Shown: in pieces, positions 1,513 to 18,256 of the stretch
Layout of the letters: every line of letters starts with the position of its first letter
Numbering within the stretch: position 1 is the first letter of the stretch
Virus record (IMG/VR): IMGVR_UViG_3300032236_001191
Coordinates: 1-64,000 of that record
DNA: 64,000 nucleotides
Reading direction: 5' to 3' (one strand)
Source: a virus
Position numbers and translations under genes: made by a program
Notes under the pieces: model-generated
Told to the model about the DNA's origin: nothing
The model's input: only the letters and a program-made list of their open reading frames with translations
The model's database searches: none

Positions 1513-2088
1513 ATGACAACTATTGCTGCTATCCAAGGAGATGGATGGGTAGTTATGGGTTCAGATACTCAAGGAACTTATAACGACTCTAAGAATCTTT
1601 ACATGGTAGGACATAAAGTTTACGATAACAATGGCATTCTAATTGCTGGTTGTGGTATGGGTCGTGGTTTAGATCTCATGCACAAGGCATGGAAGGCACC
1701 GAAGCCAACTAAGAAGTTGTCCATAGACCAGTTAGAACTCTGGATGGCACGTACATTCATCCCTAAGATGCGTCAGATGTTCATTGACTCTGGCTATGAC
1801 ATGAAAGATGACGGAGACTACGCCCAGCACGAATCCGTCTTCCTAGTTGCAGTCCAAGGAACTTTATTTATTATTGATGACGACTACTCTTTCGACCGTG
1901 ATGCCCGTGGTGTGATCACATCTGGCTCCGGCGGTGACTATGCAGCTGGAGCACTCTATGCTCTTGACTCTAAAAAAGCTAACACCGTTGAAAAAGCTAA
2001 AACGGTCCTCCGGAAAGCTGTGGATGCTGCAAAGGAGTACGACATCTATTCTGGGGGAGAAACCCGTATTTACGTACAAGAAGCGTAA
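1513..2088 (+). CDS. HslV/proteasome-beta-like Ntn-hydrolase
   Basis: This protein has the fold signature of HslV and proteasome beta subunits, N-terminal-threonine peptidases. The ATG at 1513 (not an in-frame upstream ATG at 1480) gives Met-Thr-Thr, so removal of Met exposes the Thr1 nucleophile. Counting from Thr1, the GSD motif places Asp at 17, Lys34 matches the catalytic Lys33 region, IAG falls at 43-45 as in HslV, and GSGG at 137-140 matches the HslV GSGG. Length is about 190 residues against about 175 for HslV. No HslU, Mpa or other ATPase partner is seen in the window. It sits upstream of probable virion genes. It may process virion or host proteins; with no classical prohead protease between portal and capsid genes, a head-maturation role is possible but unproven. 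Confidence 0.8.
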   Translation: MTTIAAIQGDGWVVMGSDTQGTYNDSKNLYMVGHKVYDNNGILIAGCGMGRGLDLMHKAWKAPKPTKKLSIDQLELWMARTFIPKMRQMFIDSGYDMKDDGDYAQHESVFLVAVQGTLFIIDDDYSFDRDARGVITSGSGGDYAAGALYALDSKKANTVEKAKTVLRKAVDAAKEYDIYSGGETRIYVQEA

Positions 2089-2128
2089 AGTGTGGCATTA
2101 TTAACCCATCTTCCCGAAAGGTGTGTAC

Positions 2129-2740
2129 ATGGCAACCGATGATTTAGGCAATCAAGCCGTAGCTTTTGAGTGGGGCAACCTACCAATGCAACCTAACAAT
2201 GAACGAACAGACAACTTTTATAATCAAAATAAGATTATTGGGCCTGCTCTAGGTACTGGTGACAGCCACAATATCCACGCAACTGATTGGGATAGTTTTC
2301 CCGACAGTCCTTCTGATGCTGGAAACACTCGTGTAGATGGCTCACCACTTTTTAGATGGCCTTCATACGGTACTTGCTACACAACACCTCTATCCCCTGG
2401 TGGACGTTACAACAATATGTTTGAATACCTACGCTCTGTAGGTGTAGATCCTGCTACTCTTAAGGAAGCAACCTTTACTGGAGGATCTGACCAATACGAT
2501 TGGCAAAATGGTGAGTGGGATTCAGGCATTCTTTTCTGGGCTTATATTGCAAAAGATGAAATTATTTCGATTGACTGGGGTACAGGTACTGTCTACACCG
2601 GAAAAGACTTTGATGGTCTTGTAATTGGCTCTGGCCATAGTGCGGGACAAGATGTTGCGACTGATGCTCCTGAATGGTATCACTGGTTTACTGCATTTAC
2701 AAATGACCCTGCTAAAAATAACACAGCGAATTGGTTGTAA
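2129..2740 (+). CDS. probable virion protein with shared N-terminal module, paralogue 1
   Basis: The first ~27 residues carry the pattern D-x-x-GNQAV-x-F-x-WGN-x-P-x-QPN-x-x-RT, shared with the products at 2891-3730 and 3780-4079. The rest (to residue 203) differs and is rich in Trp, Tyr, Gly and Asp, as in small beta-structured surface proteins. The ATG at 2129 is chosen over a GTG at 2123 because it aligns with both paralogues and has GAAAGG eight bases upstream. A fixed N-terminus with variable C-terminus suggests a docking module carrying different displayed domains, for example on the capsid. Function is inferred; no family is recognised. Confidence 0.7.
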   Translation: MATDDLGNQAVAFEWGNLPMQPNNERTDNFYNQNKIIGPALGTGDSHNIHATDWDSFPDSPSDAGNTRVDGSPLFRWPSYGTCYTTPLSPGGRYNNMFEYLRSVGVDPATLKEATFTGGSDQYDWQNGEWDSGILFWAYIAKDEIISIDWGTGTVYTGKDFDGLVIGSGHSAGQDVATDAPEWYHWFTAFTNDPAKNNTANWL

Positions 2741-2741
2741 T

Positions 2742-2891
2742 ATGAAACTAGAAATTAAATGCAAGTGCGGAACTGAACAATCTACTGATTTTGTTTCAGG
2801 TTTAAAAGACTTTTATAACCCATGTGAAGACTGCGGTTCTAAGCATGAAGTTAAATGGATCGAATTCACACAGAAGACAGGTGAAAAGTAA
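2742..2891 (+). CDS. small zinc-ribbon protein, 49 aa
   Basis: A 49-residue protein with a CKCG pair near the N-terminus and CEDCGS near residue 29, spaced like a zinc ribbon. The ATG at 2742 lies two bases after the previous stop, and its stop overlaps the next ATG by one base, so it is translationally coupled inside the paralogue cluster. Small zinc ribbons are common in phages and can bind nucleic acid or protein; no specific role is visible. Confidence 0.7.
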   Translation: MKLEIKCKCGTEQSTDFVSGLKDFYNPCEDCGSKHEVKWIEFTQKTGEK

Positions 2892-3730
2892 TGACTAATC
2901 CAGTAGATGATGCAGGAAATCCAAGAGTTGACTTTGTATGGGGACCATTTCCTATTCAGCCTAATGATCAAAGAACTAGCTATGGTCAGGACATTGTAAC
3001 TAACCAAGATCAAAATATGGGTTGGACAACCATTCGCCCAATCGATAGTGCTAACTTAGCTACTGGCTGGGATATTATTACTCGTAACTCTGGTGATGGC
3101 TTCTACGAAGAAATTACAAATGGCCGCCAAGAAATTACAATCTACGACAGCCACGCAGAATTTGTTATCGATGGCTACGAAGGCTACCCAGGATTCCAAA
3201 CTGGTGGGGTATTTGATGACATTATTCCTAACGTAACTATCCCTAATATTGTTGGGCTGTCAGTCTCTGAAGCTGCTAATGCTTTGGATGCTGCTAATGT
3301 GCCTTACAACAATGACGGAATTACCACAGTAGGAGCAACTAGCGGAAATAACAACTCTGTTGCTAATCAGTCTGTTGATGCAGGGCTAATATTTAATGCG
3401 GGAGATGTTCCTACAGTTCACTTCCAAACTTACCACTACGTAGTAGTAGTACCTATTAACCACAACCTTGCAGGAATTCGCCCAGATTCAGGAGATGGTG
3501 ACAATTACCGATTCCTTTATCTTATGGGACGTAATTCAGGTATCCAAGTTGGAGATCAAATTACACTCCATGACACCGGTGTAGATAACTACAATCGCCC
3601 ATTTGACGTTACCGCAGTAGCAAATGATGACTCATTTAATACAGGTGGTCAGAAGATTACTATTCGCAACGGCCTCATGGATGGCACTGGCGGAAACGTA
3701 ACTAACACAGGTACATACACAAAGCCTTAA
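2891..3730 (+). CDS. probable virion protein with PASTA domain, paralogue 2
   Basis: Residues 1-30 hold the family N-terminal module (GN-x-x-V-x-F-x-WG, then QPN-x-x-RT). Residues about 70-105 resemble the third paralogue (EEI, DSH, YPGF). Residues 117-180 look like a PASTA domain: IPNIVGLSVSEA, a central helix, then an NQS-x-x-AG segment and a VPTVHF strand. PASTA domains bind peptidoglycan or muropeptides in actinobacterial and firmicute kinases and penicillin-binding proteins. The C-terminal ~95 residues are Gly/Asn-rich beta-like sequence with an RNG..DGTGG stretch. The protein could be a capsid- or tail-exposed cell-wall binder. The PASTA call rests on the motif pattern alone. Confidence 0.65.
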   Translation: MTNPVDDAGNPRVDFVWGPFPIQPNDQRTSYGQDIVTNQDQNMGWTTIRPIDSANLATGWDIITRNSGDGFYEEITNGRQEITIYDSHAEFVIDGYEGYPGFQTGGVFDDIIPNVTIPNIVGLSVSEAANALDAANVPYNNDGITTVGATSGNNNSVANQSVDAGLIFNAGDVPTVHFQTYHYVVVVPINHNLAGIRPDSGDGDNYRFLYLMGRNSGIQVGDQITLHDTGVDNYNRPFDVTAVANDDSFNTGGQKITIRNGLMDGTGGNVTNTGTYTKP

Positions 3731-3734
3731 TATT

Positions 3735-3750
3735 CCCTTAGACGTAAGGG
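3735..3750 (+). terminator. weak hairpin between paralogues 2 and 3
   Basis: CCCTTA (3735-3740) and TAAGGG (3745-3750) form a short stem with loop GACG, followed by TCTTAA. It may attenuate transcription or stabilise the mRNA end; the stem is short, so it is listed with low confidence. Confidence 0.3.
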
Positions 3751-3779
3751 TCTTAACCAATCTATAGATAGGAAACACA

Positions 3780-4079
3780 ATGGCAGTAGATAGCTCAGGC
3801 AACCAAGCGGTTGACTTTGTATGGGGTAACATGCCTCTACAACCAAATGCAGCTCGTACAGGTTCTGGACCATCAGTTGTTGTCGGTGCAAACACGGCAC
3901 AAAATCATGGTATGTCTGGATATTCTGTATACCCTTCAACCCACCTTACTATTGGGTCTTATACAGTAAATAAAAATAATGGCATCACTGAAGAAGTTAA
4001 AGCAGATAGCCATGATATTGCAGATGGATTGTGGTCTAACTACCCAGCATTCATTCCAAACGTTGGATACCAAGACTAA
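3780..4079 (+). CDS. small virion-like protein, paralogue 3
   Basis: This 99-residue protein starts with the same module as the two preceding paralogues (GNQAVDFVWGN, QPN, RTG). Its remaining ~70 residues match the middle of the PASTA-bearing paralogue (EEV, DSH, NYPAF). It thus looks like the minimal version of the family without an added C-terminal domain. AGGAAA lies six bases before the ATG. A hairpin terminator follows the stop, closing this unit. A capsid decoration or minor structural role is inferred from context. Confidence 0.7.
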   Translation: MAVDSSGNQAVDFVWGNMPLQPNAARTGSGPSVVVGANTAQNHGMSGYSVYPSTHLTIGSYTVNKNNGITEEVKADSHDIADGLWSNYPAFIPNVGYQD

Positions 4080-4580: not shown

Positions 4581-5186
4581 ATGTTTAATAGAAATATAGT
4601 TCAAGCTGGAAATAGAGCCCCAGGTATGGGTCTTGCAGGTGGCCTTATGGGTTTAGTCAATACAGCAAATGCCCTTCGTTTTCACCAACTACGTGAACAG
4701 ATTACAACTTCTGAAGTTGGTAAGCGTCAGATGAGTGGAGAACTAGCTCGTACAGTTGGAGATGTTGCTCGCACACATATGGGTAACGCAGAGTATAAGC
4801 AACTTCAAGAACAATTCCACGGCGTATATCATATGCCACTTGCAGCAGATCACCCATTACGTGCGCCAGGAGTTCAATGGCGTGAAGGTGAAAGCGCTGA
4901 TGCTTTTCCACATCGCATGAATCCTGAAAGTGGAAAGATGGAACCTTACTTCCCAGGACAGACAATTGTTAACATGGGTGGTGGACGTGTAGCATCATCT
5001 AAGGGTGAAGCTTTTGTTGGTGCTAGAGAAGGTAGTAATAAGAAAAATACTGTTGGTGATGATGATGATAATAATGGTGGCGGCGGAGGCGGCGGAGGAA
5101 AGCCAAAAAAAACTAAAACTACTCCAACACCACCACCAGGTAGCAAAGGTGGAAAAGTACCTTTCAGAGCACGAGGTAGATACTAA
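4581..5186 (+). CDS. unknown, probably structural protein with Gly and Lys/Pro tail
   Basis: A 201-residue protein. Residues 1-150 include a Gly/Met-rich start and helical segments. It ends with an Asp run, a run of eight glycines, a Lys/Thr/Pro-rich linker and RARGRY. The polar tail suggests a flexible, possibly DNA- or RNA-contacting C-terminus. AGGAG lies eleven bases upstream of the ATG. Its stop overlaps the next ATG by one base, so it is coupled with the histone-tailed protein downstream. No family is recognised. Confidence 0.65.
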   Translation: MFNRNIVQAGNRAPGMGLAGGLMGLVNTANALRFHQLREQITTSEVGKRQMSGELARTVGDVARTHMGNAEYKQLQEQFHGVYHMPLAADHPLRAPGVQWREGESADAFPHRMNPESGKMEPYFPGQTIVNMGGGRVASSKGEAFVGAREGSNKKNTVGDDDDNNGGGGGGGGKPKKTKTTPTPPPGSKGGKVPFRARGRY

Positions 5187-7867
5187 TGGCTAGAAAGAAA
5201 AAAGTAGTCGATCCACGCAAAGCACGCTTACAAGCAGAAAGCGAAGCACGTCGCCCTGTTAAGAAGGCTGCCGTTAAAAAAGCTGCTGTTAAGAAGGTTG
5301 CTCCTGCAAAGAAAGCCGCTGCAGTTAAGAAAGCTGCACCTGCAAAGAAAGCATCGCCTAAAAAAGGTGGTTTAGGACCAAGCGCAAAAGATTTAGAAAG
5401 TGCATTAACTCGCTTAAATAGCGGTGGTTCTTCTGCATCTGCAGAAGCAGGCGCTACATCTGACTCAAGCGCAGCATTTGCTGCAAGTCAAGCTGCCCGT
5501 GCCAATGCAGAAATTGGTACAGAACAAGATTTAACTACACCACAACGTTTAACAGCTAATGCTTTCCGTGGCGTTGGCGAAGTAACCGCTACACCTGCCC
5601 CTGAAGATATTAAAGAACCTCCTTTAGAGGCAGACCCCCTTAGACCTAAAGTAACTCCTCTACCACTTCCTACACACGGCCAAGAAGCTCGTGCAGATCG
5701 TGCAGATATTATTCCAAGAACAGGTACTGGCGTTCCTGCTACTGTAGATGCTGAAGAAGCAAAAAGAAAAGCTGCTAAACGCAATAAGAAGGGTATGGGA
5801 ATACCTGGAAGTGAAAATGGCGTAAATGATCTTGCTATGACTCTTCACGAACGTGATCGTAAAGCAGCACAGGAATCTGGAAAAGCTGTTAACGGTGTTG
5901 AACCAGATGATCCTGAAGTAACGTCAGTAAAGCCTGAACACCAGGATTTCTATCTTGGTTACCATCGTCGTTTAGCAAAAGTATTAACACACTTTGGTGT
6001 TGATGAAGATAAGATTGATAAAATTAGCCAAGGCAGTGGAAAGACTAGAGTAGATAAGGTTAACTATCTGCACTCAGTTTTACAACGTCATTTGGATTCA
6101 CAATCCCCACAACAGGTCGATCATGAAGGTCAGGGTATTACACACTGGATTCATCCAACAACTGGTGTAGCCCACCCTATTTCTGCAAACCACCCAGAAA
6201 TGCCTAAGCGTGTAGATGATAAGGGAAATATAGTTCCTACATTTATTCGTAATAAGGGAATAAGTGAATATGTACGTAGAAATGCTGATACAGGTGAGTG
6301 GGGTCTTGATCGTAAGACAGGTAATGCTGCCTATGATAAAACTCTTGGTTGGGAACCTGATAAGCCAGAAGGTTGGAATACTGTTCAACTTAAAGGGGGA
6401 ATTAAAGCTCTTAAGTTAAATAAAGCCCCATCCGGTGGAAGCATGAAATCTTTAGTAGCACTTCATCGTGATGAGATGATGGGTGATTTTGCCCCTGCTA
6501 TTGAGGGAGAGTCACGTAGACGCCATGCAACTATTGCAACAGGACTTGTTGTAGATAGTGCTGGTGTAGATGCGCCAACCCGTAACCGCAATAAGGTAGA
6601 GACTTCCGGTAAATTAGGAGGAAAGTCAGGACAGTTTAAGATCTTACGTGCTACCGGCAGAACACAAAAGCGTTTTGTTGTTGGAAGCCCAAACACAGCT
6701 GGTGAAGGTGCCGAAGGTCCTACACAACCAGCTCAAGCAGAGATTACTACTGTACCTAAAGTTGATTTAGTTGGCCGTAACCCAGTAAGAAATCCTCGAC
6801 GTAAGAAGTCAGTTTATAACCGTAAAACTGGGATTACTATGGTTCGTCCTCCTGAGCGTGGTTTACACATTCAGCAAGGAACACCTGGTGTAAGCACTAG
6901 ACTACCACGCAATGGTGGGGTAGTAGGTGCAGGTTCTGTTACCACTGCAAGTGGAAATGAAATCAGCACATTTGATACAACTCCAACAACACCTCAAATT
7001 GAGCGTATGAAGAGGCTAACTGCTCTTCAACCTGAACACCCTACTGTAGGTGCTGTTTCAGAACCCCCTGTTGCTCTTGAGGGTGTTATCAGCCGTACGC
7101 ATCAGCATATCGGCAGAACCAACAAAGATGGCGCAATTGTTAGCGCACACACCATCACAACTGAAGTTAAGCCGGTTCTTAGTAAAAAGGGTAAGCCATC
7201 ACTTGATAAAAGTGGTAAGCCAAAAACTGTTAAGAAGATTACCTCTAAGCCTGGTATGGTAGACCAAATGCTTCCAGGAATGGAAGAGGCTGGTAAGCCT
7301 GAACAAATTCAGGGACCAGATAGAGAAGTTAGTGAATCGCAAGTAGTACAGGGCCCAGTTACAGCTGGACACTATGAAGCTAATAAGGCAGAAATTGAAC
7401 GCCTTGCTAAACCAGGTGAGAAGCGTTCTTCTAAGATCAGTAAGAAATTTGCTGGTTTAGTAACCGTCCCTGTAAAGAAAATTGTAAAGGGTGAGTTAGT
7501 AGACAAGCCTAAGGAAGAACAGCCTGAACCTATTGGTGATTTTACTGGTATGAGTGGAATTCAAATCCACCGTGCTACTAGACACCTTACCCCTGCAGGA
7601 AAGCAAGTTGCTGTAGTTCCAAAGACTAGAGAACAAGCTTTATCTTACAAGACAGGTAGGATGGAACCTGTGGGCACAGTTGCACCAAGACCTACACCTA
7701 ATCCGCCAGAGCAGATGGAATTTGAAGGTATGGAAACTGCAGGCTCAGCCCATGCTGCTGGACAGCAGTGGCTAAAGCCTAGAGACCTAAGTTCAGAGAC
7801 CCTTAACCTACAAGGAAAAGCAGGAACAGGTTTCCAGCCTCGTAGCCGAGGAAAGCAACGTAAGTAA
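5186..7867 (+). CDS. large basic protein with histone-H1-like N-terminus, 893 aa
   Basis: Residues about 15-60 are a Lys/Ala/Pro repeat array (units like VKKAA and PAKKA) typical of histone H1 tails and bacterial nucleoid proteins such as HU-like C-terminal extensions. The remainder is low in hydrophobics and rich in Lys, Pro, Gly and Thr, with a helical segment near residues 250-305 and two related C-terminal motifs (QMLPGMEEAG and QMEFEGMETAG). No catalytic motif is recognised. Size, charge and position among likely virion genes suggest an injected, DNA-binding internal virion protein or a condensation factor, which is inference. A chain of small overlapping genes follows. Confidence 0.7.
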   Translation: MARKKKVVDPRKARLQAESEARRPVKKAAVKKAAVKKVAPAKKAAAVKKAAPAKKASPKKGGLGPSAKDLESALTRLNSGGSSASAEAGATSDSSAAFAASQAARANAEIGTEQDLTTPQRLTANAFRGVGEVTATPAPEDIKEPPLEADPLRPKVTPLPLPTHGQEARADRADIIPRTGTGVPATVDAEEAKRKAAKRNKKGMGIPGSENGVNDLAMTLHERDRKAAQESGKAVNGVEPDDPEVTSVKPEHQDFYLGYHRRLAKVLTHFGVDEDKIDKISQGSGKTRVDKVNYLHSVLQRHLDSQSPQQVDHEGQGITHWIHPTTGVAHPISANHPEMPKRVDDKGNIVPTFIRNKGISEYVRRNADTGEWGLDRKTGNAAYDKTLGWEPDKPEGWNTVQLKGGIKALKLNKAPSGGSMKSLVALHRDEMMGDFAPAIEGESRRRHATIATGLVVDSAGVDAPTRNRNKVETSGKLGGKSGQFKILRATGRTQKRFVVGSPNTAGEGAEGPTQPAQAEITTVPKVDLVGRNPVRNPRRKKSVYNRKTGITMVRPPERGLHIQQGTPGVSTRLPRNGGVVGAGSVTTASGNEISTFDTTPTTPQIERMKRLTALQPEHPTVGAVSEPPVALEGVISRTHQHIGRTNKDGAIVSAHTITTEVKPVLSKKGKPSLDKSGKPKTVKKITSKPGMVDQMLPGMEEAGKPEQIQGPDREVSESQVVQGPVTAGHYEANKAEIERLAKPGEKRSSKISKKFAGLVTVPVKKIVKGELVDKPKEEQPEPIGDFTGMSGIQIHRATRHLTPAGKQVAVVPKTREQALSYKTGRMEPVGTVAPRPTPNPPEQMEFEGMETAGSAHAAGQQWLKPRDLSSETLNLQGKAGTGFQPRSRGKQRK

Positions 7868-8635: not shown

Positions 8636-8796
8636 TGGCTACTAAAAAAGTATGGGATACCCCAGACCCAAAGAAGAAAAGCAAAGGTCTTACCCCAAAG
8701 AAGAAAGCTGCTGCTAAAGCACGTGCTAAAGCTGCAGGACGCCCATACCCTAACCTTATTGATAACATGGCGGTATCTAAGAAAAAGAGTAAGTGA
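8635..8796 (+). CDS. tiny Lys/Ala-rich protein, 53 aa
   Basis: A 53-residue protein with PKKK, a Lys/Ala helix (AAAKARAKAA) and a Lys-rich end. It overlaps the genes on both sides by one base. Its composition is like short histone tails and resembles the N-terminus of the large basic protein at 5186-7867. A DNA-binding role is inferred from charge only. Confidence 0.6.
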   Translation: MATKKVWDTPDPKKKSKGLTPKKKAAAKARAKAAGRPYPNLIDNMAVSKKKSK

Positions 8797-9464
8797 TGAC
8801 TTCCAGAGAAAAAGGTAAGTCTGATGAACGTCGTAATTCATTTTTAAATGCACTTAAAAATGTTAAAGTAACCTCAAATGCAACTCCTGGTGAATTTGAC
8901 GATAGCTCTGATATTATAGGGGATCTACACCAAAAACAACTCTACAATCGAGCAGATGCGCTTGATATGTTCAGCAATTCTATTTCTAATCCTGAACATT
9001 TAAAAGCATTAAATAAAGTACATATTGATCGAAGTCCTGCTGATCCTACGGATCCTTCAGGATTATACAGATCTGTCAATAACTCTTTAATTATTAAAGT
9101 AAATAATCATAGATCAGAAGATGAATTGCACGAAACCGTAGCTCATGAACTAGGGCACCATTTGTATGAGCACGGTGTAGATGAACAGCCTGGAGATCGT
9201 ATTCCTCTTGCTAAAATAGGAAAAGAAGAGGCAGAAGCAGATTCATATGCAAATCCCCACAAACCTGTTTCTAACCTATACACACACGCTGTTGTCGGCC
9301 ATCTTTTAGGCGGCTGCTCAAAAGATCACGGACCAGAACATCCTCACGAAGCATTAGTAAATCTTGGAAAAGGATACCTGGAATCTATGAAAAATATCAA
9401 CCCTCATATAGGACGTCAGTTAGAAAATTTAGCATTTTCCAGAGGAAACAATAATGGCAACTAA
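8796..9464 (+). CDS. HExxH zinc metallopeptidase
   Basis: The 222-residue product has AHELGHH, giving the zincin motif H117-E118-x-x-H121, and a downstream acidic EEAEADSYA segment near residues 144-152 that can supply the third ligand, as in ImmA/IrrE-like and related M-family peptidases. The ATG at 8796 overlaps the previous stop; a GTG at 8793 is the alternative. Possible roles are head-protein processing, since a classical prohead protease is not seen, or cleavage of a host regulator. The catalytic call is firm; the substrate is unknown. Confidence 0.75.
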   Translation: MTSREKGKSDERRNSFLNALKNVKVTSNATPGEFDDSSDIIGDLHQKQLYNRADALDMFSNSISNPEHLKALNKVHIDRSPADPTDPSGLYRSVNNSLIIKVNNHRSEDELHETVAHELGHHLYEHGVDEQPGDRIPLAKIGKEEAEADSYANPHKPVSNLYTHAVVGHLLGGCSKDHGPEHPHEALVNLGKGYLESMKNINPHIGRQLENLAFSRGNNNGN

Positions 9465-10235: not shown

Positions 10236-10237
10236 AG

Positions 10238-10309
10238 CTCTCCCCCAAGGACTCGAACCTCGATAGGCGGAACCAGAATCCGCAGTCTTGCCAATTAGAC
10301 GAAGGGAGA
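10238..10309 (-). tRNA. tRNA-Gln (CTG)
   Basis: The minus strand folds into a full cloverleaf: acceptor TCTCCCT/GGGGAGA, anticodon stem GCGGA/TCCGC with loop TTCTGGT giving anticodon CTG, and T-arm CGAGG-TTCGAGT-CCTTG. It is 72 nt including the discriminator G; CCA is not encoded. It reads CAG codons and lies downstream of tRNA-Asn and the endolysin on the same strand. Confidence 0.93.
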
Positions 10310-10315
10310 AAGAAT

Positions 10316-10349
10316 GCTGGTGGGTCTACGAGCAGACTAACCCACCAGC
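10316..10349 (-). ncRNA. strong hairpin between the two tRNA genes
   Basis: GCTGGTGGGT (10316-10325) and ACCCACCAGC (10340-10349) form a perfect 10-bp stem with a 14-base loop in the 123-nt gap between the tRNAs. A second, weaker pair (GAGGC 10359-10363, GCCTC 10381-10385) follows. No tRNA T-loop is present. It could be a processing signal or a small structured RNA. Confidence 0.4.
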
Positions 10350-10432
10350 TTGATACATGAGGCTTTACATAAGCTCGTTGGCCTCCAGATGTCCCCACAG
10401 TCGACAAGGCAACCATGGCATCCTTAGTATCG

Positions 10433-10505
10433 CTGGACAACCTGGGCTCGAACCAGGGACCTGGCGATTAACAGTCGCCTGCTCTGCCAACTGAGCTATT
10501 GTCCA
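10433..10505 (-). tRNA. tRNA-Asn (GTT)
   Basis: The minus strand gives a complete cloverleaf: acceptor TGGACAA/TTGTCCA, D-arm GCTC/GAGC, anticodon stem GGCGA/TCGCC with loop CTGTTAA giving anticodon GTT, and T-arm CCTGG-TTCGAGC-CCAGG. It is 73 nt including the discriminator G; CCA is not encoded. It reads AAC and AAU codons, which are frequent in the Asn-rich fibre genes. Confidence 0.95.
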
Positions 10506-11845: not shown

Positions 11846-12081
11846 TGTGGAGATCTAAAGAAAAGAAGCAAGAACGACAAAGAACTCGTATTGAAAAGCG
11901 AGTAGACTCTTTGCCTTCAGCAGAACTTTTTCCATGGGCAGAGCAGTCTATCTATGCATTGGGTAGAAATCTATCCGGGTGGCAAAAGACTGGAGATGCT
12001 TTTTACCTTGAAGAAGCCCGTGTTGCTTCTGAGGTTGTCAATACAATTGTTACAACGCTAAATAAAAGGATTGCTCCGTGA
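11845..12081 (+). CDS. small helical protein before TerL, 78 aa
   Basis: A 78-residue helical, basic protein directly upstream of the large terminase and overlapping it by four bases. Its place suits a small-terminase or terminase-accessory role, yet no helix-turn-helix motif is evident, so this remains positional inference. Confidence 0.6.
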   Translation: MWRSKEKKQERQRTRIEKRVDSLPSAELFPWAEQSIYALGRNLSGWQKTGDAFYLEEARVASEVVNTIVTTLNKRIAP

Positions 12082-13667
12082 ACGAATTTGAAGATGAAGA
12101 GCTATTCGACGAGGATGAGCCCTTAATCGAAGAAGATGATGAGGCGCTGTTTCCTGATGACACTCAGGTAGAGCTTGATGAGTTATCAAAAGAATTTGTA
12201 AACCAGCTCATCGATAAGATCATGGCTTTTATGGAGTTGCTTGTAGGACACAAGCTTCACCCGTATCAGGCGCCTTTGGCACGTCGAATCATTGAATCTA
12301 TCATCATCAACGATGGCGAAGAAGTTACCGCCCTGGCTGCTCGTCAGTCTGGTAAATCAGAGACTATCGCTAATACCGTAGCTACTCTTATGGTTATTCT
12401 ACCCCGCCTAGCTAAGATGTTCCCAGAGCTACTTGGTAAATTTGGTGATGGCATTTGGGTAGGAATGTTTGCCCCTATTCAATCACAGGTAGAAACCCTG
12501 TATGCTCGTACGGTTTCCCGCCTAACTAGCGAACATGCCCTTTCTATTTTGGGCGATGCTGAAATTGACGATAGCGTAGGTAAGAGTCCTGGAGTTACCC
12601 GTAACATCCGACTAAAAAACTCAGGGTCATCCCTTATGATGATGACAGCTAACCCACGAGCTAAGATTGAATCTAAGTCTTTCCATTTGATCATTATCGA
12701 CGAATGTCAAGAAGCAGACGACTTTGTGGTTGCAAAGTCAATCTCACCTATGGGTGCGTACTACAACGCCACCATGGTCAAGACAGGAACACCTACAACC
12801 TCTAAGAATAATTTTTATAAAGCTATTCAGCTAAACAAACGTCGTCAGACTTCTAGATCCGCCCGACAAAACCATTTTCAATGGGACTGGCGAGATGTGG
12901 CTAAGTTCAACGAAAACTACCAAAAGTTTATTAAAAAGGAAATGCTCCGTATTGGGGAGGACTCAGATGAATTTCAAATGTCGTACAACTGTAAGTGGCT
13001 GTTGGAAAGAGGAATGTTCGTTACATCCAACATCATGGATGAGCTTGGGGACACCTCAGCAGAAACGGTTAAGTCTCATTTCGGTTCTCCGGTTGTGGTC
13101 GGCATCGACCCAGCCCGCAAGATGGACTCAACGGTCGTCACGGTCGTTTGGGTAGACTGGGATCGACCAGATGAGTTTGGGTACTACGACCACCGTGTCT
13201 TAAACTGGCTAGAGCTTCAGGGAGATGACTGGGAGGAACAGTACTTCCAGATTGTTAACTTCCTATCAAGCTATGACGTTTTAGCTATTGGCGTAGATGC
13301 TAACGGTGTTGGAGATGCTGTTGCAGGCCGTCTAAAGATCCTTATGCCTAGAGTTGAGGTAGTGTCGGTATCTTCTAGCCCATCCGAGCAATCACGTCGT
13401 TGGAAGCACCTACAAGCCTTAATTCAACGTCGTATGGTTTCTTGGCCAGCGCACGCAAAAACACGTCGTTTACGTATTTGGAAGAAGTTTTACCAGCAAA
13501 TGACTGACGCCGAAGTAAAGTACAAAGGCCCTAACTTCTCAGTGGCGGCCCCAGAGGAAGCTCATGCCCACGACGACTTTGTTGACTCGTTAGCTTTAGC
13601 CTGTTCTCTAACCCAGGAAATGGTTATGCCAACTATTGAAGTAAGCGCCTCACCATTTTTTTCCTAG
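12078..13667 (+). CDS. terL: terminase large subunit
   Basis: The 529-residue protein is the packaging motor and nuclease. After an acidic N-terminus (residues 1-40), the ATPase domain has Walker A ARQSGKSET and Walker B LIIIDECQEA, then a TGTPTT coupling motif. The RNase-H-like nuclease domain has the acidic residues in GIDPARKMDST, GVDANGVGDAV and AHDDFVDSLA. Start is a GTG in a four-base GTGA overlap with the previous gene. Domain order and length match phage large terminases. Portal, scaffold and capsid genes follow in the usual order. Confidence 0.95.
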   Translation: MNEFEDEELFDEDEPLIEEDDEALFPDDTQVELDELSKEFVNQLIDKIMAFMELLVGHKLHPYQAPLARRIIESIIINDGEEVTALAARQSGKSETIANTVATLMVILPRLAKMFPELLGKFGDGIWVGMFAPIQSQVETLYARTVSRLTSEHALSILGDAEIDDSVGKSPGVTRNIRLKNSGSSLMMMTANPRAKIESKSFHLIIIDECQEADDFVVAKSISPMGAYYNATMVKTGTPTTSKNNFYKAIQLNKRRQTSRSARQNHFQWDWRDVAKFNENYQKFIKKEMLRIGEDSDEFQMSYNCKWLLERGMFVTSNIMDELGDTSAETVKSHFGSPVVVGIDPARKMDSTVVTVVWVDWDRPDEFGYYDHRVLNWLELQGDDWEEQYFQIVNFLSSYDVLAIGVDANGVGDAVAGRLKILMPRVEVVSVSSSPSEQSRRWKHLQALIQRRMVSWPAHAKTRRLRIWKKFYQQMTDAEVKYKGPNFSVAAPEEAHAHDDFVDSLALACSLTQEMVMPTIEVSASPFFS

Positions 13668-14543: not shown

Positions 14544-16265
14544 GTGAGTGGTGGTATGGATTTTAGTCCTCCGTCGTATAGAGCGGCGTCGAGTGACTTA
14601 ACAATCTCGATTTCTCCACTAGGTCTTGTAGAACTAGCGGACGAAGAGTTTGAAGTTCATGGACCACGCCTAAACCGTTATTCACTTAACTGGGCTATGT
14701 ATCTTGGACACCACTGGTCTTATCGCCGTGAAATTGGCGAATCACAGATGGTATACAACTATTACCGTGCTTTTACTGACTACATCATTAACTTTACATT
14801 TGGCCGTGGCGTTTCGTTCCGTAGCCCAAATGAAACAGAAGCTATCGTTCCAGACATCCTACAGCGTGCTTGGGAAGTAGATAACGATAAGCATGGCGTT
14901 CTATGGGAGATGGGCCAGCAAGGCGGAGTTTCAGGAGACTGCTTTGTTAAGGTAGCCTATGAAGAAGCGTATCAAGATAGCGTTGGCCGTATGCATGCAG
15001 GACGTGTACGTATCCTACCCCTTAACTCTTCTTTCTGTTTTCCAGAGTTTCACCCGCACGATCGTTCTCGCCTAATTCGTTTTAAGCTTAAGTATCGTTT
15101 CTGGGGTACATCCACAGAAGGTACACGTCAGGTTTATACCTACACTGAAATTCTTACCGATGATCGTATTGAAGAATACATCAACGATGAGCTTATTGAC
15201 TCACGACCTAACCCAATTGGTGTAGTTCCAATTGTTCACATCCCTAACGTACGAGTTTCTGGATCCCCATGGGGTCTTGCAGATTGCCACGACGTTATTG
15301 TTTTGAACAGAAACTATAATGAAGTTGCTACAGATGTTGCAGATATCATTAACTACCATGCGGCGCCCGTAACAGTAATCACCGGCGCTAAGGCCTCGTC
15401 CCTAGAAAAGGGACCTAAAAAGGTCTGGGGCGGTCTACCAAAAGACGCCCAAGTCTTTAACCTCGAAGGAGGCGGTCAAGGTCTACAAGGTGCTATGGAG
15501 TACCTTAAGATCATTAAGACTGCTATGCATGAGATGGTTGGAGTTCCAGAGTCAGCTCTAGGACAAGTCCAAGCAATCTCTAACACTTCAGGTGTAGCAC
15601 TTGCGATTCAGTTCCAGCCTTTGATGAACCGTTACCAGCAGAAGCTTGTAACATACAGCGAAGGTATTCGTAGAATTAATGAGCTCGTGCTTTCTACGCT
15701 AGCGTTTAAAGAACCAGAGCTATTTACTTACAACCCAGTTTTCAACGGTCCTATTAAGCCTACGCAGTTGCCTCAGCTTAATCTAGCCGACCCTATTACT
15801 TACCAGTCTCAAACTCACTTCCCACCTCCACTACCTTTGGATAAGCTTATTGTGCTTAATGAAATACAAACTAAAATGGGTATGGGTCTTGAAAGCCGTG
15901 AAGGTGCTCTACGTCAGCTGGGCGAGGAGTTCCCAGATGAGAAGCTTGAAGAAATTCGTGCAGAGCTCATTAATGACGCCAAGGCTGACGGAGCTCTACA
16001 GCTCATTAAGAATCAAATTAACGCATCTATTGCATCCCTTACCGGCATGCTTCCAGATGGTACCCCGCCTCCAGGTGCACAACCTGGCGCAGGTGTTGGA
16101 CCTGGTCCATTCGGTCAGCCTGGCGTAATCAGTCCTCTCGAGAAGGACGTCATCGAACAGCTTCAGCAAGTACAGGTAGATCTAGTTTCAGAAGCCTACA
16201 GTGCAAAGGTTCCTTTGCTAAAGACTCCTGAATCAGATACACCTAACTCTGAAGAAAATAAGTAG
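14544..16265 (+). CDS. portal protein
   Basis: The 573-residue protein is the dodecameric DNA gateway at the capsid vertex. It carries the characteristic portal features: an N-terminal NYYRAFTDYI segment, an alpha/beta domain with ISISPLG and IPNVRVSGSPWG, a long helical stem with HEMVGVPESALG and NTSGVALAIQF, and a C-terminal helical region. The TSGVALxxxF pattern is typical of SPP1/T4-type portals. It starts with a GTG after AGGGAG. It is followed by the scaffold and capsid genes. Confidence 0.9.
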   Translation: MSGGMDFSPPSYRAASSDLTISISPLGLVELADEEFEVHGPRLNRYSLNWAMYLGHHWSYRREIGESQMVYNYYRAFTDYIINFTFGRGVSFRSPNETEAIVPDILQRAWEVDNDKHGVLWEMGQQGGVSGDCFVKVAYEEAYQDSVGRMHAGRVRILPLNSSFCFPEFHPHDRSRLIRFKLKYRFWGTSTEGTRQVYTYTEILTDDRIEEYINDELIDSRPNPIGVVPIVHIPNVRVSGSPWGLADCHDVIVLNRNYNEVATDVADIINYHAAPVTVITGAKASSLEKGPKKVWGGLPKDAQVFNLEGGGQGLQGAMEYLKIIKTAMHEMVGVPESALGQVQAISNTSGVALAIQFQPLMNRYQQKLVTYSEGIRRINELVLSTLAFKEPELFTYNPVFNGPIKPTQLPQLNLADPITYQSQTHFPPPLPLDKLIVLNEIQTKMGMGLESREGALRQLGEEFPDEKLEEIRAELINDAKADGALQLIKNQINASIASLTGMLPDGTPPPGAQPGAGVGPGPFGQPGVISPLEKDVIEQLQQVQVDLVSEAYSAKVPLLKTPESDTPNSEENK

Positions 16266-16373: not shown

Positions 16374-17138
16374 ATGTCAGAAACGACTAACATTGTTGAT
16401 ACTCCGGAAGCACAGCAAGCATTCCTTACTGACTTCCCAGTAGCAACAGAATCAAAAGTAACTCCAGTAGCTGCACCAGATGCACCAAAAGGCTACACAG
16501 AAGAAGATCTTAAAAAAGTTCGTGAACAAGAAAAGTCAAAACTGTACCCACAGATTGATTCTCTTAAGGAAGAACTTACTCTTCTTAAGAAGGAACGTGA
16601 AGAACGTCTAGCAGAAGCAACAGCTCGTGAAGCTGCAGCTCAAGAAGAAGCTCGTAAGAAGGCTGAATCTGAAATGGATGTTCGACAACTTCTTGAAACA
16701 AAAGAAAAAGAGTGGGCAGAAAAGCTAGATGCAGAGCGTCTAGAACGTGAAAAAGCTTTTACACTCCTAGAGCGTGAGCGTCAGTATTCAGAGTTATCTG
16801 AGTATCGTAATCGCCGCCTAGAAGATGAACGGGATAATATTATCCCTGAGCTCGTAGATCTCATTTCGGGTAACACCCCAGACGAGATTGAGAATAGTAT
16901 TACAGGACTTAGAGAGCGTAGCTCCCGAATCTTGGAATCGGCGCAGGCTGCAATGCAGAATGCCCGCAAAGAAATGACAGGTACGAGAGTAACATCTCCG
17001 GCCCCAATGGAAAACAATTCGGATCAACAACAGTTCACAGCGGAGCAAATCGCTTCCATGTCGGTTACCGAATACGCAAAATACCGTGATCGTTTGCTTC
17101 CTCGAGCAAATGTTCGCAATAAAGGAATCTTGGGATAA
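16374..17138 (+). CDS. capsid scaffolding protein
   Basis: The 254-residue protein has a long Glu/Lys/Arg/Ala-rich coiled coil (about residues 45-150), a disordered N-terminus with repeated Pro/Val/Ala, and a short basic C-terminal region. This composition and its position between portal and capsid genes match phage scaffolds that direct procapsid assembly and are then removed. No protease domain is fused to it, unlike some phages. CTAAGGAC precedes the ATG. Confidence 0.85.
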   Translation: MSETTNIVDTPEAQQAFLTDFPVATESKVTPVAAPDAPKGYTEEDLKKVREQEKSKLYPQIDSLKEELTLLKKEREERLAEATAREAAAQEEARKKAESEMDVRQLLETKEKEWAEKLDAERLEREKAFTLLERERQYSELSEYRNRRLEDERDNIIPELVDLISGNTPDEIENSITGLRERSSRILESAQAAMQNARKEMTGTRVTSPAPMENNSDQQQFTAEQIASMSVTEYAKYRDRLLPRANVRNKGILG

Positions 17139-17179: not shown

Positions 17180-18256
17180 ATGGCATCAGCCGTAACAGGT
17201 ACCGGCAATCTCGCCGCAGCCCCAACAGCGTATTCTGGCGCTAACAGCCAGCTTACACAAGCAATCCAGACCATCTGGTCTAAGGAAATTCTTTTCCAGT
17301 CAATGCCAATTCTACGCTTCGAACAGTTCGCTGTTAAGAAGACAGAACTAGGAGTTGCACCTGGTCTCCAGATCAACTTCATGCGTTACAACAACCTCGG
17401 CTTCGCATCAGCGCTTGTTGAAGGTGTTCGTATGTCAACAAACGCATTGACAGCACAGCAGTTCTCAATCACTGTTGCTGAGCACGGATACGCAATCGCA
17501 GTATCAGAGCTCCTACTTAACGCATCATTCGATGACGTTATGGCATCAGCTTCACGTCTTCTCGGACGTAACATGGCTCTCTACCTTGATGGCCAGGCTC
17601 GTGACACACTTATGGCAGCATCTTCTGTCATCTACGGTTACGACCGCACATCTGCTAACGCAGTTAACAACTGGTATGACTACGGTACAAAGGGCACAAA
17701 CCGTGCTTCAATGACCGGTAACTTCGCTCTCACAACTGCAACCGTTAAGGACGCAGTCGAGACACTTGCAACCAAGAACATCCCTCGCTTGGGTGAGACA
17801 TACGTTGCATTCGTTCACCCACACCAGAGCCGTAAGCTTCGTGACAACCCAGAGTTCATCGAAGTAACAAAGTACGCAGCTCCAGGTAACTTCATGCTCG
17901 GTGAAATCGGTCGTCTATACGACACAGTATTCATCGAAACTACACAGATCCAGAAGGTCCCAGGCGGAGCAGGAGCTGGCTATTCAGCTGACTCAACTGT
18001 TGCACCAGGATCAATCGTTTACCCAACTGGTGGAGGATACACATCTCCAACAACAAAGACAGGTAACGGAGCAGCAGATCGCTACTCAGCTATCTTCATT
18101 GGTGACAACGCATTCGGACACGCAATTTCACTTCCTGTGGAACTTCGTGATGGTGGTATTCTTGACTTCGGTCGTGAGCACGCACTTGCTTGGTATGCAA
18201 TCTACGGTCTTGGTCTTATTACAGATCAGTCTGTTGTTATCGCAGAAACCAACTAA
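17180..18256 (+). CDS. major capsid protein
   Basis: The 358-residue protein forms the head shell. It follows portal and scaffold, has a strong ribosome site (AAGGAG) and strongly biased codons, and contains motifs seen in N4-gp56-like coat proteins: ITVAEHGYAIAVSELL, a helix NMALYLDGQARDTL and FVHPHQSRKLRDNPEF. The N-terminus is a short mobile arm with no large propeptide. A perfect GC-rich hairpin follows the stop, which should stabilise the abundant mRNA. Assignment as coat protein is firm; the subfamily is a pattern-based guess. Confidence 0.9.
   Translation: MASAVTGTGNLAAAPTAYSGANSQLTQAIQTIWSKEILFQSMPILRFEQFAVKKTELGVAPGLQINFMRYNNLGFASALVEGVRMSTNALTAQQFSITVAEHGYAIAVSELLLNASFDDVMASASRLLGRNMALYLDGQARDTLMAASSVIYGYDRTSANAVNNWYDYGTKGTNRASMTGNFALTTATVKDAVETLATKNIPRLGETYVAFVHPHQSRKLRDNPEFIEVTKYAAPGNFMLGEIGRLYDTVFIETTQIQKVPGGAGAGYSADSTVAPGSIVYPTGGGYTSPTTKTGNGAADRYSAIFIGDNAFGHAISLPVELRDGGILDFGREHALAWYAIYGLGLITDQSVVIAETN

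Follow-up and report, generated by a model that had tools for sequence, protein, structure and literature searches.

The window analyzed here, a stretch of 64,000 nucleotides from a viral record of 100,557 bp, carries near its 5′ end an open reading frame predicted to encode an N-terminal threonine peptidase related to HslV and to the proteasome beta subunits (Table 1). The terminase gene lies about 10 kb further downstream and is followed by the portal, probable scaffold and capsid genes; the capsid family, PHROG 1357, also occurs in L052, a relative that carries the peptidase gene within its head module. Between the peptidase and terminase genes we found three related open reading frames (2123-4079) of a single family, present at 19 loci, that share an N-terminal motif approximating FxWGxxPxQPNxxRT, the homologue in L012 having apparent PASTA repeats. 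The same region contains a gene for an 893-amino acid protein with a lysine/alanine-rich, histone-like N terminus and no PHROG match (5186-7867), a gene for a candidate IrrE/M78-like zinc metallopeptidase (8793-9464; PHROG 87, E=2e-10; Pfam below cut-off) and, next to a lysozyme-like (SLT_3) gene, minus-strand genes for tRNA-Gln(CTG) and tRNA-Asn(GTT) (10237-10505). The host is taken to be actinobacterial because the record encodes, outside the window, a WhiB transcription factor (record positions 69430-69795; L082:5430-5795), a marker of actinobacterial hosts, because the nearest isolate match to the window peptidase comes from Actinomycetia phage DSL-LC01, and because relatives of the portal occur in Streptomyces phages.

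Table 1. Coordinates of the peptidase gene, its predicted functional residues and the head genes in the window (mature numbering, initiator Met removed, for the catalytic residues).
Feature	Position	Strand	Basis or conservation
Shine-Dalgarno sequence GGAGGG, 7 nt 5′ of the start codon	1500..1505	+	Direct sequence reading
HslV/proteasome-beta-like N-terminal threonine peptidase (predicted)	1513..2088	+	191 aa, Met + mature Thr1
Catalytic Thr1 codon (residue 2)	1516..1518	+	Invariant, 61/61 close relatives
Asp17 codon (residue 18)	1564..1566	+	60/61, one Glu; 122/123 in wider set
Lys34 codon (residue 35), equivalent to proteasome Lys33	1615..1617	+	61/61; 123/123
Gly47 codon (residue 48), oxyanion-hole glycine	1654..1656	+	61/61; 119/123
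Acidic loop, residues 93-108 (SGYDMKDDGDYAQHES), proteasome pore-loop position	1789..1836	+	AF2 model
GSGG motif with active-site serine, mature 137-140	1924..1935	+	Conservation in relatives
Terminase large subunit	12078..13667	+	
Portal protein (SPP1-like)	14544..16265	+	
Probable scaffold gene	16374..17138	+	Position between portal and capsid; no Pfam/PHROG match
Major capsid protein	17180..18256	+	PHROG 1357

The product of the open reading frame matched PF00227 (E=2e-7, 31.1 bits against a gathering cut-off of 22.4) and, over residues 1-189, the PHROG 1040 “peptidase HslV family” profile (E=1.5e-23); a six-frame search of the record with PF00227 gave a single best stretch of 20.7 bits, under the cut-off. 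An AF2 model built from 52 aligned sequences reached a mean pLDDT of 90.4 and a pTM of 0.88, and a second prediction of this protein from a more inclusive alignment, serving as a repeat, gave 91.1 and 0.88. Foldseek returned 1196 PDB matches for this model at E<=0.001, the best being 20S beta subunits, HslV and BPH, the betaproteobacterial proteasome homologue, each with a probability of 1.0 and TM-scores (by query) of 0.59-0.71; the top match in the viral library was an “HslV” of an uncultured phage (30% identical, TM 0.86). The model has the four-layer Ntn-hydrolase fold, including helices at residues 50-59 and 71-92. The claim of the original prediction that this is an HslV/proteasome-like Ntn-hydrolase is therefore borne out by two profiles, the model and the structural matches, which also rule out a chance open reading frame. 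Structure prediction was the check that had been proposed for this claim, with a fold lacking the four-layer core as the outcome that would speak against it, and the Ntn fold was recovered.

Conservation was assessed in 61 distinct close relatives (the window peptidase and its IMG/VR relatives) and in a wider set of 123 diverse sequences that includes isolated phages. The window peptidase combines an N-terminal Thr1 with Asp17, the equivalent of Lys33, Gly47 and GSG, and Thr1-Thr2, Asp17, Lys34 and GSGG at 137-140 are located exactly where the original prediction had placed them. In addition to the counts of Table 1, Ser138 is kept in 59 of the 61 close relatives, while Thr1 is present in 121 of the 123 diverse sequences (one Ser, one gap) and the GSG glycines are present in all of them. 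This near-invariance, together with the purifying selection on the gene described below, upholds the proposal of an intact active site, as far as conserved residues can predict it. However, the expectation that the enzyme would process itself did not hold, as there is no propeptide: the ATG stands directly before the Thr codon, behind the Shine-Dalgarno sequence, and the Met-Thr-Thr start is common to the relatives, with G-rich ribosome-binding sites 5′ of the same start. Host methionine aminopeptidase should consequently suffice to expose Thr1, as it does in HslV, where removal of Met by this enzyme exposes the N-terminal Thr. We rejected a propeptide initiated at the upstream ATG at 1480, which has no ribosome-binding site, unlike the conserved start. 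At L025:4260 and L031:3042 the homologue seemingly begins with ATC rather than ATG before Thr-Thr, behind a good ribosome-binding site, which reflects either an uncommon initiation codon or the limits of the sequencing.

The enzyme resembles several known systems without coinciding with any of them. It shares with members of PHROG 1040, such as those of Tenacibaculum phage pT24, Geobacillus phage E3, Moorella phage MTATph1 and Vibrio phage 2.058.O, the fold, a Met-Thr (or Met-Ser) start, Asp17, Lys33 and GSG, yet it is only 24-30% identical to these isolates, several of which have the gene in nucleotide-metabolism regions. Likeness to HslV (ClpQ) lies in the order and spacing of the catalytic residues, the Thr immediately after the initiator Met and the Foldseek match, whereas the window peptidase falls far under the cut-off of the HslV equivalog model TIGR03692 (34.1 bits against 157.75), comes without HslU and has a longer acidic loop. 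Its profile match to BPH (PDB 5OVS/5OVT) extends over residues 2-185 with TM-scores of 0.65-0.70, although identity is ~20% and the window peptidase is known from its sequence and a monomer model. Two further groups of phage-borne, HslV-related proteasome homologues, AAH and PPH, were described by Fuchs et al. 2021, who knew of neither an AAA+ partner nor a genomic context for them (PMC8665760). PPH proteins have ~140 amino acids and lack the second helix H2 (PMC8665760), unlike the 191-residue window peptidase with its helix at 50-59 and long helix at 71-92. AAH was linked with actinobacteria, without any actinobacteria-specific phage carrying it being found (PMC8665760), and can be likened to the window peptidase by description, as phage-borne and of actinobacterial connection. 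Scans of genome contigs revealed no bacterial relatives; plasmid matches in rhizobia and Paraburkholderia are distant, and the two plasmid homologues examined have 196 amino acids, a Met-Thr-Cys start and a match to PHROG 1040.

The acidic loop connects the helix at 71-92 to the strand at 109-114 and has the lowest pLDDT of the model. Its GYD.K signature is invariant in A1, and the fuller form GYDMKDDGD is peculiar to the clade of the window peptidase and its sister clades when compared with the PHROG 1040 isolates. BPH likewise has a longer acidic loop, and no unfoldase is known for it (PMC8665760). By analogy, the conserved acidic stretch of the window peptidase supports action without an unfoldase.

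The position of the gene differs from one clade to the next. In the window clade it lies ~5-10 kb upstream of the terminase gene, and in clade C 1.4 kb upstream of a terminase gene. Near the peptidase gene of clade C phages, and adjoining the terminase gene, we also observed a gene for a histone-deacetylase-family protein (L036:3370-4320; PF00850, E=6e-54). The clade D gene stands alone on the opposite strand amid replication and lysis genes, and in isolated phages the gene is surrounded by nucleotide-metabolism or unassigned genes. In the ~40-kb contigs of clade B it begins ~15 bp behind the portal gene, with the terminase ~2 kb upstream and the capsid ~9 kb downstream, an arrangement found at 84 of the 96 loci assigned to this clade (some contigs being counted twice). 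One locus, L013, crosses these boundaries: its peptidase is 67% identical to that of the window and belongs to the window clade on the tree, but occupies the portal-adjacent slot next to a portal of clade B.

So that the sample would not be biased toward carriers of the peptidase, we drew contigs by their portal protein, which gave 80 loci. An HslV-like open reading frame directly follows the portal gene at 68 of them, and at nine the slot is filled instead by an open reading frame of 73-79 amino acids (L234:5217-5444, L235, L236, L246, L247, L250, L252, L254 and L278); the remaining three end too early to be judged, two of these beginning with Met-Thr-Thr. For seven of the nine loci lacking the peptidase the whole contig was searched, two being near full length, and no HslV-like gene was found. 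The 73-79-residue protein is highly charged and of no recognised family, and never accompanies the peptidase at the loci examined. In Streptomyces phages that share the portal-149aa-1600aa order, the slot is taken by other small open reading frames.

The peptidases that occupy this slot belong to types only ~30% identical to each other. In 14 head modules drawn from longer contigs, gene order from portal to capsid is nearly constant and the identities of portal, scaffold and capsid correlate with one another at ~0.8 (portal-capsid, 0.80). Peptidase identity, on the contrary, is uncorrelated with that of the portal, capsid and scaffold (rho 0.03, 0.01 and -0.07, respectively). Among 50 dereplicated portal loci, HslV and portal identities are weakly correlated (rho 0.26, Mantel p 0.0005), and portals up to 96.8% identical stand beside peptidases 35% identical. 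The peptidase can also be missing from a closely related module, as in L283, whose capsid and scaffold are 87% and 84% identical to those of the carrier L288. This analysis of swaps and losses rests on uncultured contigs, and the residual correlation among the dereplicated ones indicates that exchange is frequent rather than free.

These observations bear directly on the suggestion, made in the original prediction, that the enzyme might be a head-maturation protease, one that is produced alongside the head proteins, becomes trapped inside the prohead and cuts scaffold or capsid before packaging. Adjacency to the portal in the ~40-kb relatives, the classical place for such a gene at most of the clade B and portal-sampled loci, first strengthened this idea, which also draws on the homology between the window capsid and the capsids of these relatives and the failure to find an S78 or ClpP-like protease in the tested ~40-kb members or in the record of the window. 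The accompanying remark that no protease is visible between the portal and capsid genes of the window also stands, none having been recognised there, the record-wide search covering the S78 and ClpP-like families. The test of exchange and loss then weakened the head-protease idea. A dedicated head protease should stay with its substrates, and the peptidase gene does not: its type changes, or it disappears, for the most part without matching changes in portal, scaffold or capsid, as L283 illustrates. Location between portal and capsid is moreover confined to the ~40-kb relatives, the window gene being far from its head genes and the clade D gene solitary, and in Vibrio phage 2.058.O and DSL-LC01 the peptidase coexists with an S78 protease that scores above cut-off. 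The head-maturation reading is thus not supported, and we judge it quite improbable; a broad, non-specific degradation of the scaffold by the peptidase may nevertheless occur.

Alternatively, the protein could supply the peptidase component of an ATP-dependent protease. The absence of HslU, originally noted for the window, extends to the whole 100.6-kb record, as TIGR00390 found no match there or in 29 other carrier records, so that the unfoldase would have to be a host ATPase or the pair of MoxR-type AAA+ and VWA-domain proteins encoded outside the window on the minus strand (record positions 91121-94471; L083:7122-10471). An AAA_2 match at 93.5 kb proved to be this MoxR-type AAA_5 protein and not a Clp-type unfoldase. 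HslV-like enzymes are poor proteases without an ATPase partner, and AAA_5 proteins above cut-off are encoded by each of the seven large contigs of the window clade that were tested, as well as by DSL-LC01, L172, L174, L175 and L043; in several related phages the distance to the peptidase gene is often no more than ~10 kb. Against this, the AAA+ and peptidase genes do not adjoin each other, we know of no case in which MoxR proteins feed peptidase rings, and the ~40-kb carriers encode no AAA_5 protein that scores above cut-off, which indicates that the MoxR/VWA pair is not a required partner. We therefore regard a different AAA+ partner as unlikely, though worth keeping in mind. The swapping of ~30% identical types at a fixed locus between nearly identical head genes, and the replacement of the peptidase by an unrelated 73-79-residue open reading frame in other phages, could also be read as the mark of a protease that serves counter-defence or host takeover by eliminating particular host proteins, its rapid exchange reflecting either an arms race or a partner that differs between hosts. 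Selection on the gene within one type is strongly purifying, not diversifying (dN/dS ~0.03-0.10 for pairs unsaturated at synonymous sites), and we know of no defence target; we give this reading little credence.

We favor, with moderate confidence, an active, self-compartmentalising accessory threonine peptidase that is exchanged between actinophages and operates without HslU, rather than a dedicated head-maturation protease. Translation would start at ATG 1513, and host deformylase and methionine aminopeptidase would remove the formyl-methionine to expose Thr1. The subunits may build a single or double ring like those of HslV and BPH, a proposal drawn from the fold. Thr1 would attack the peptide bond with the help of Asp17, Lys34 and Ser138, Gly47 providing the oxyanion hole, and the conserved acidic loop may control entry to the chamber. 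Given that no HslU was found in the phage, substrates would be small or unfolded, or would be delivered by a different ATPase; most likely, the enzyme breaks down host proteins, or proteins no longer needed, in the course of infection. Its gene would have entered actinobacteriophage genomes at a small number of favored positions, within late or early modules that differ between phages.

The accessory and exchangeable nature of the peptidase is probable in view of the clade-specific neighbourhoods, the slot filled either by divergent types or by the small open reading frame, the uncorrelated identities and the arrangement in L013. Several observations weigh against it: the peptidase is present at ~88% of the judgeable portal-sampled loci, a high proportion for a dispensable cargo gene, and the weak correlation with portal identity remains. 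A location behind the portal gene would also entail late co-expression with the head genes, needless for a pure host-takeover enzyme. A more speculative version, which we consider decidedly unlikely, would make it an interchangeable proteasome-like peptidase in a fixed slot, produced late, perhaps carried in the virion, independent of an unfoldase and swapped as new hosts or defences are met.

The peptidase family, and the fact that phages carry it, were already known from the PHROG 1040 annotation and from Fuchs 2021. New, as far as the searched sources show, are its clade in actinophages, its fixed site next to the portal gene and the pattern of swaps and losses; in the open-licence literature we found no paper tying HslV-like proteins to actinophages or to a prohead role. 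Phage proteasome homologues had been catalogued without function or genomic context (PMC8665760), and the portal-adjacent slot provides such a context for those of one large group of uncultured actinophages. Our results also indicate that phages of actinobacteria are carriers, unlike the outcome of that survey for AAH (PMC8665760). The slot offers natural swaps and losses that can be used as experiments, and these weigh against the obvious guess of a role in head maturation.
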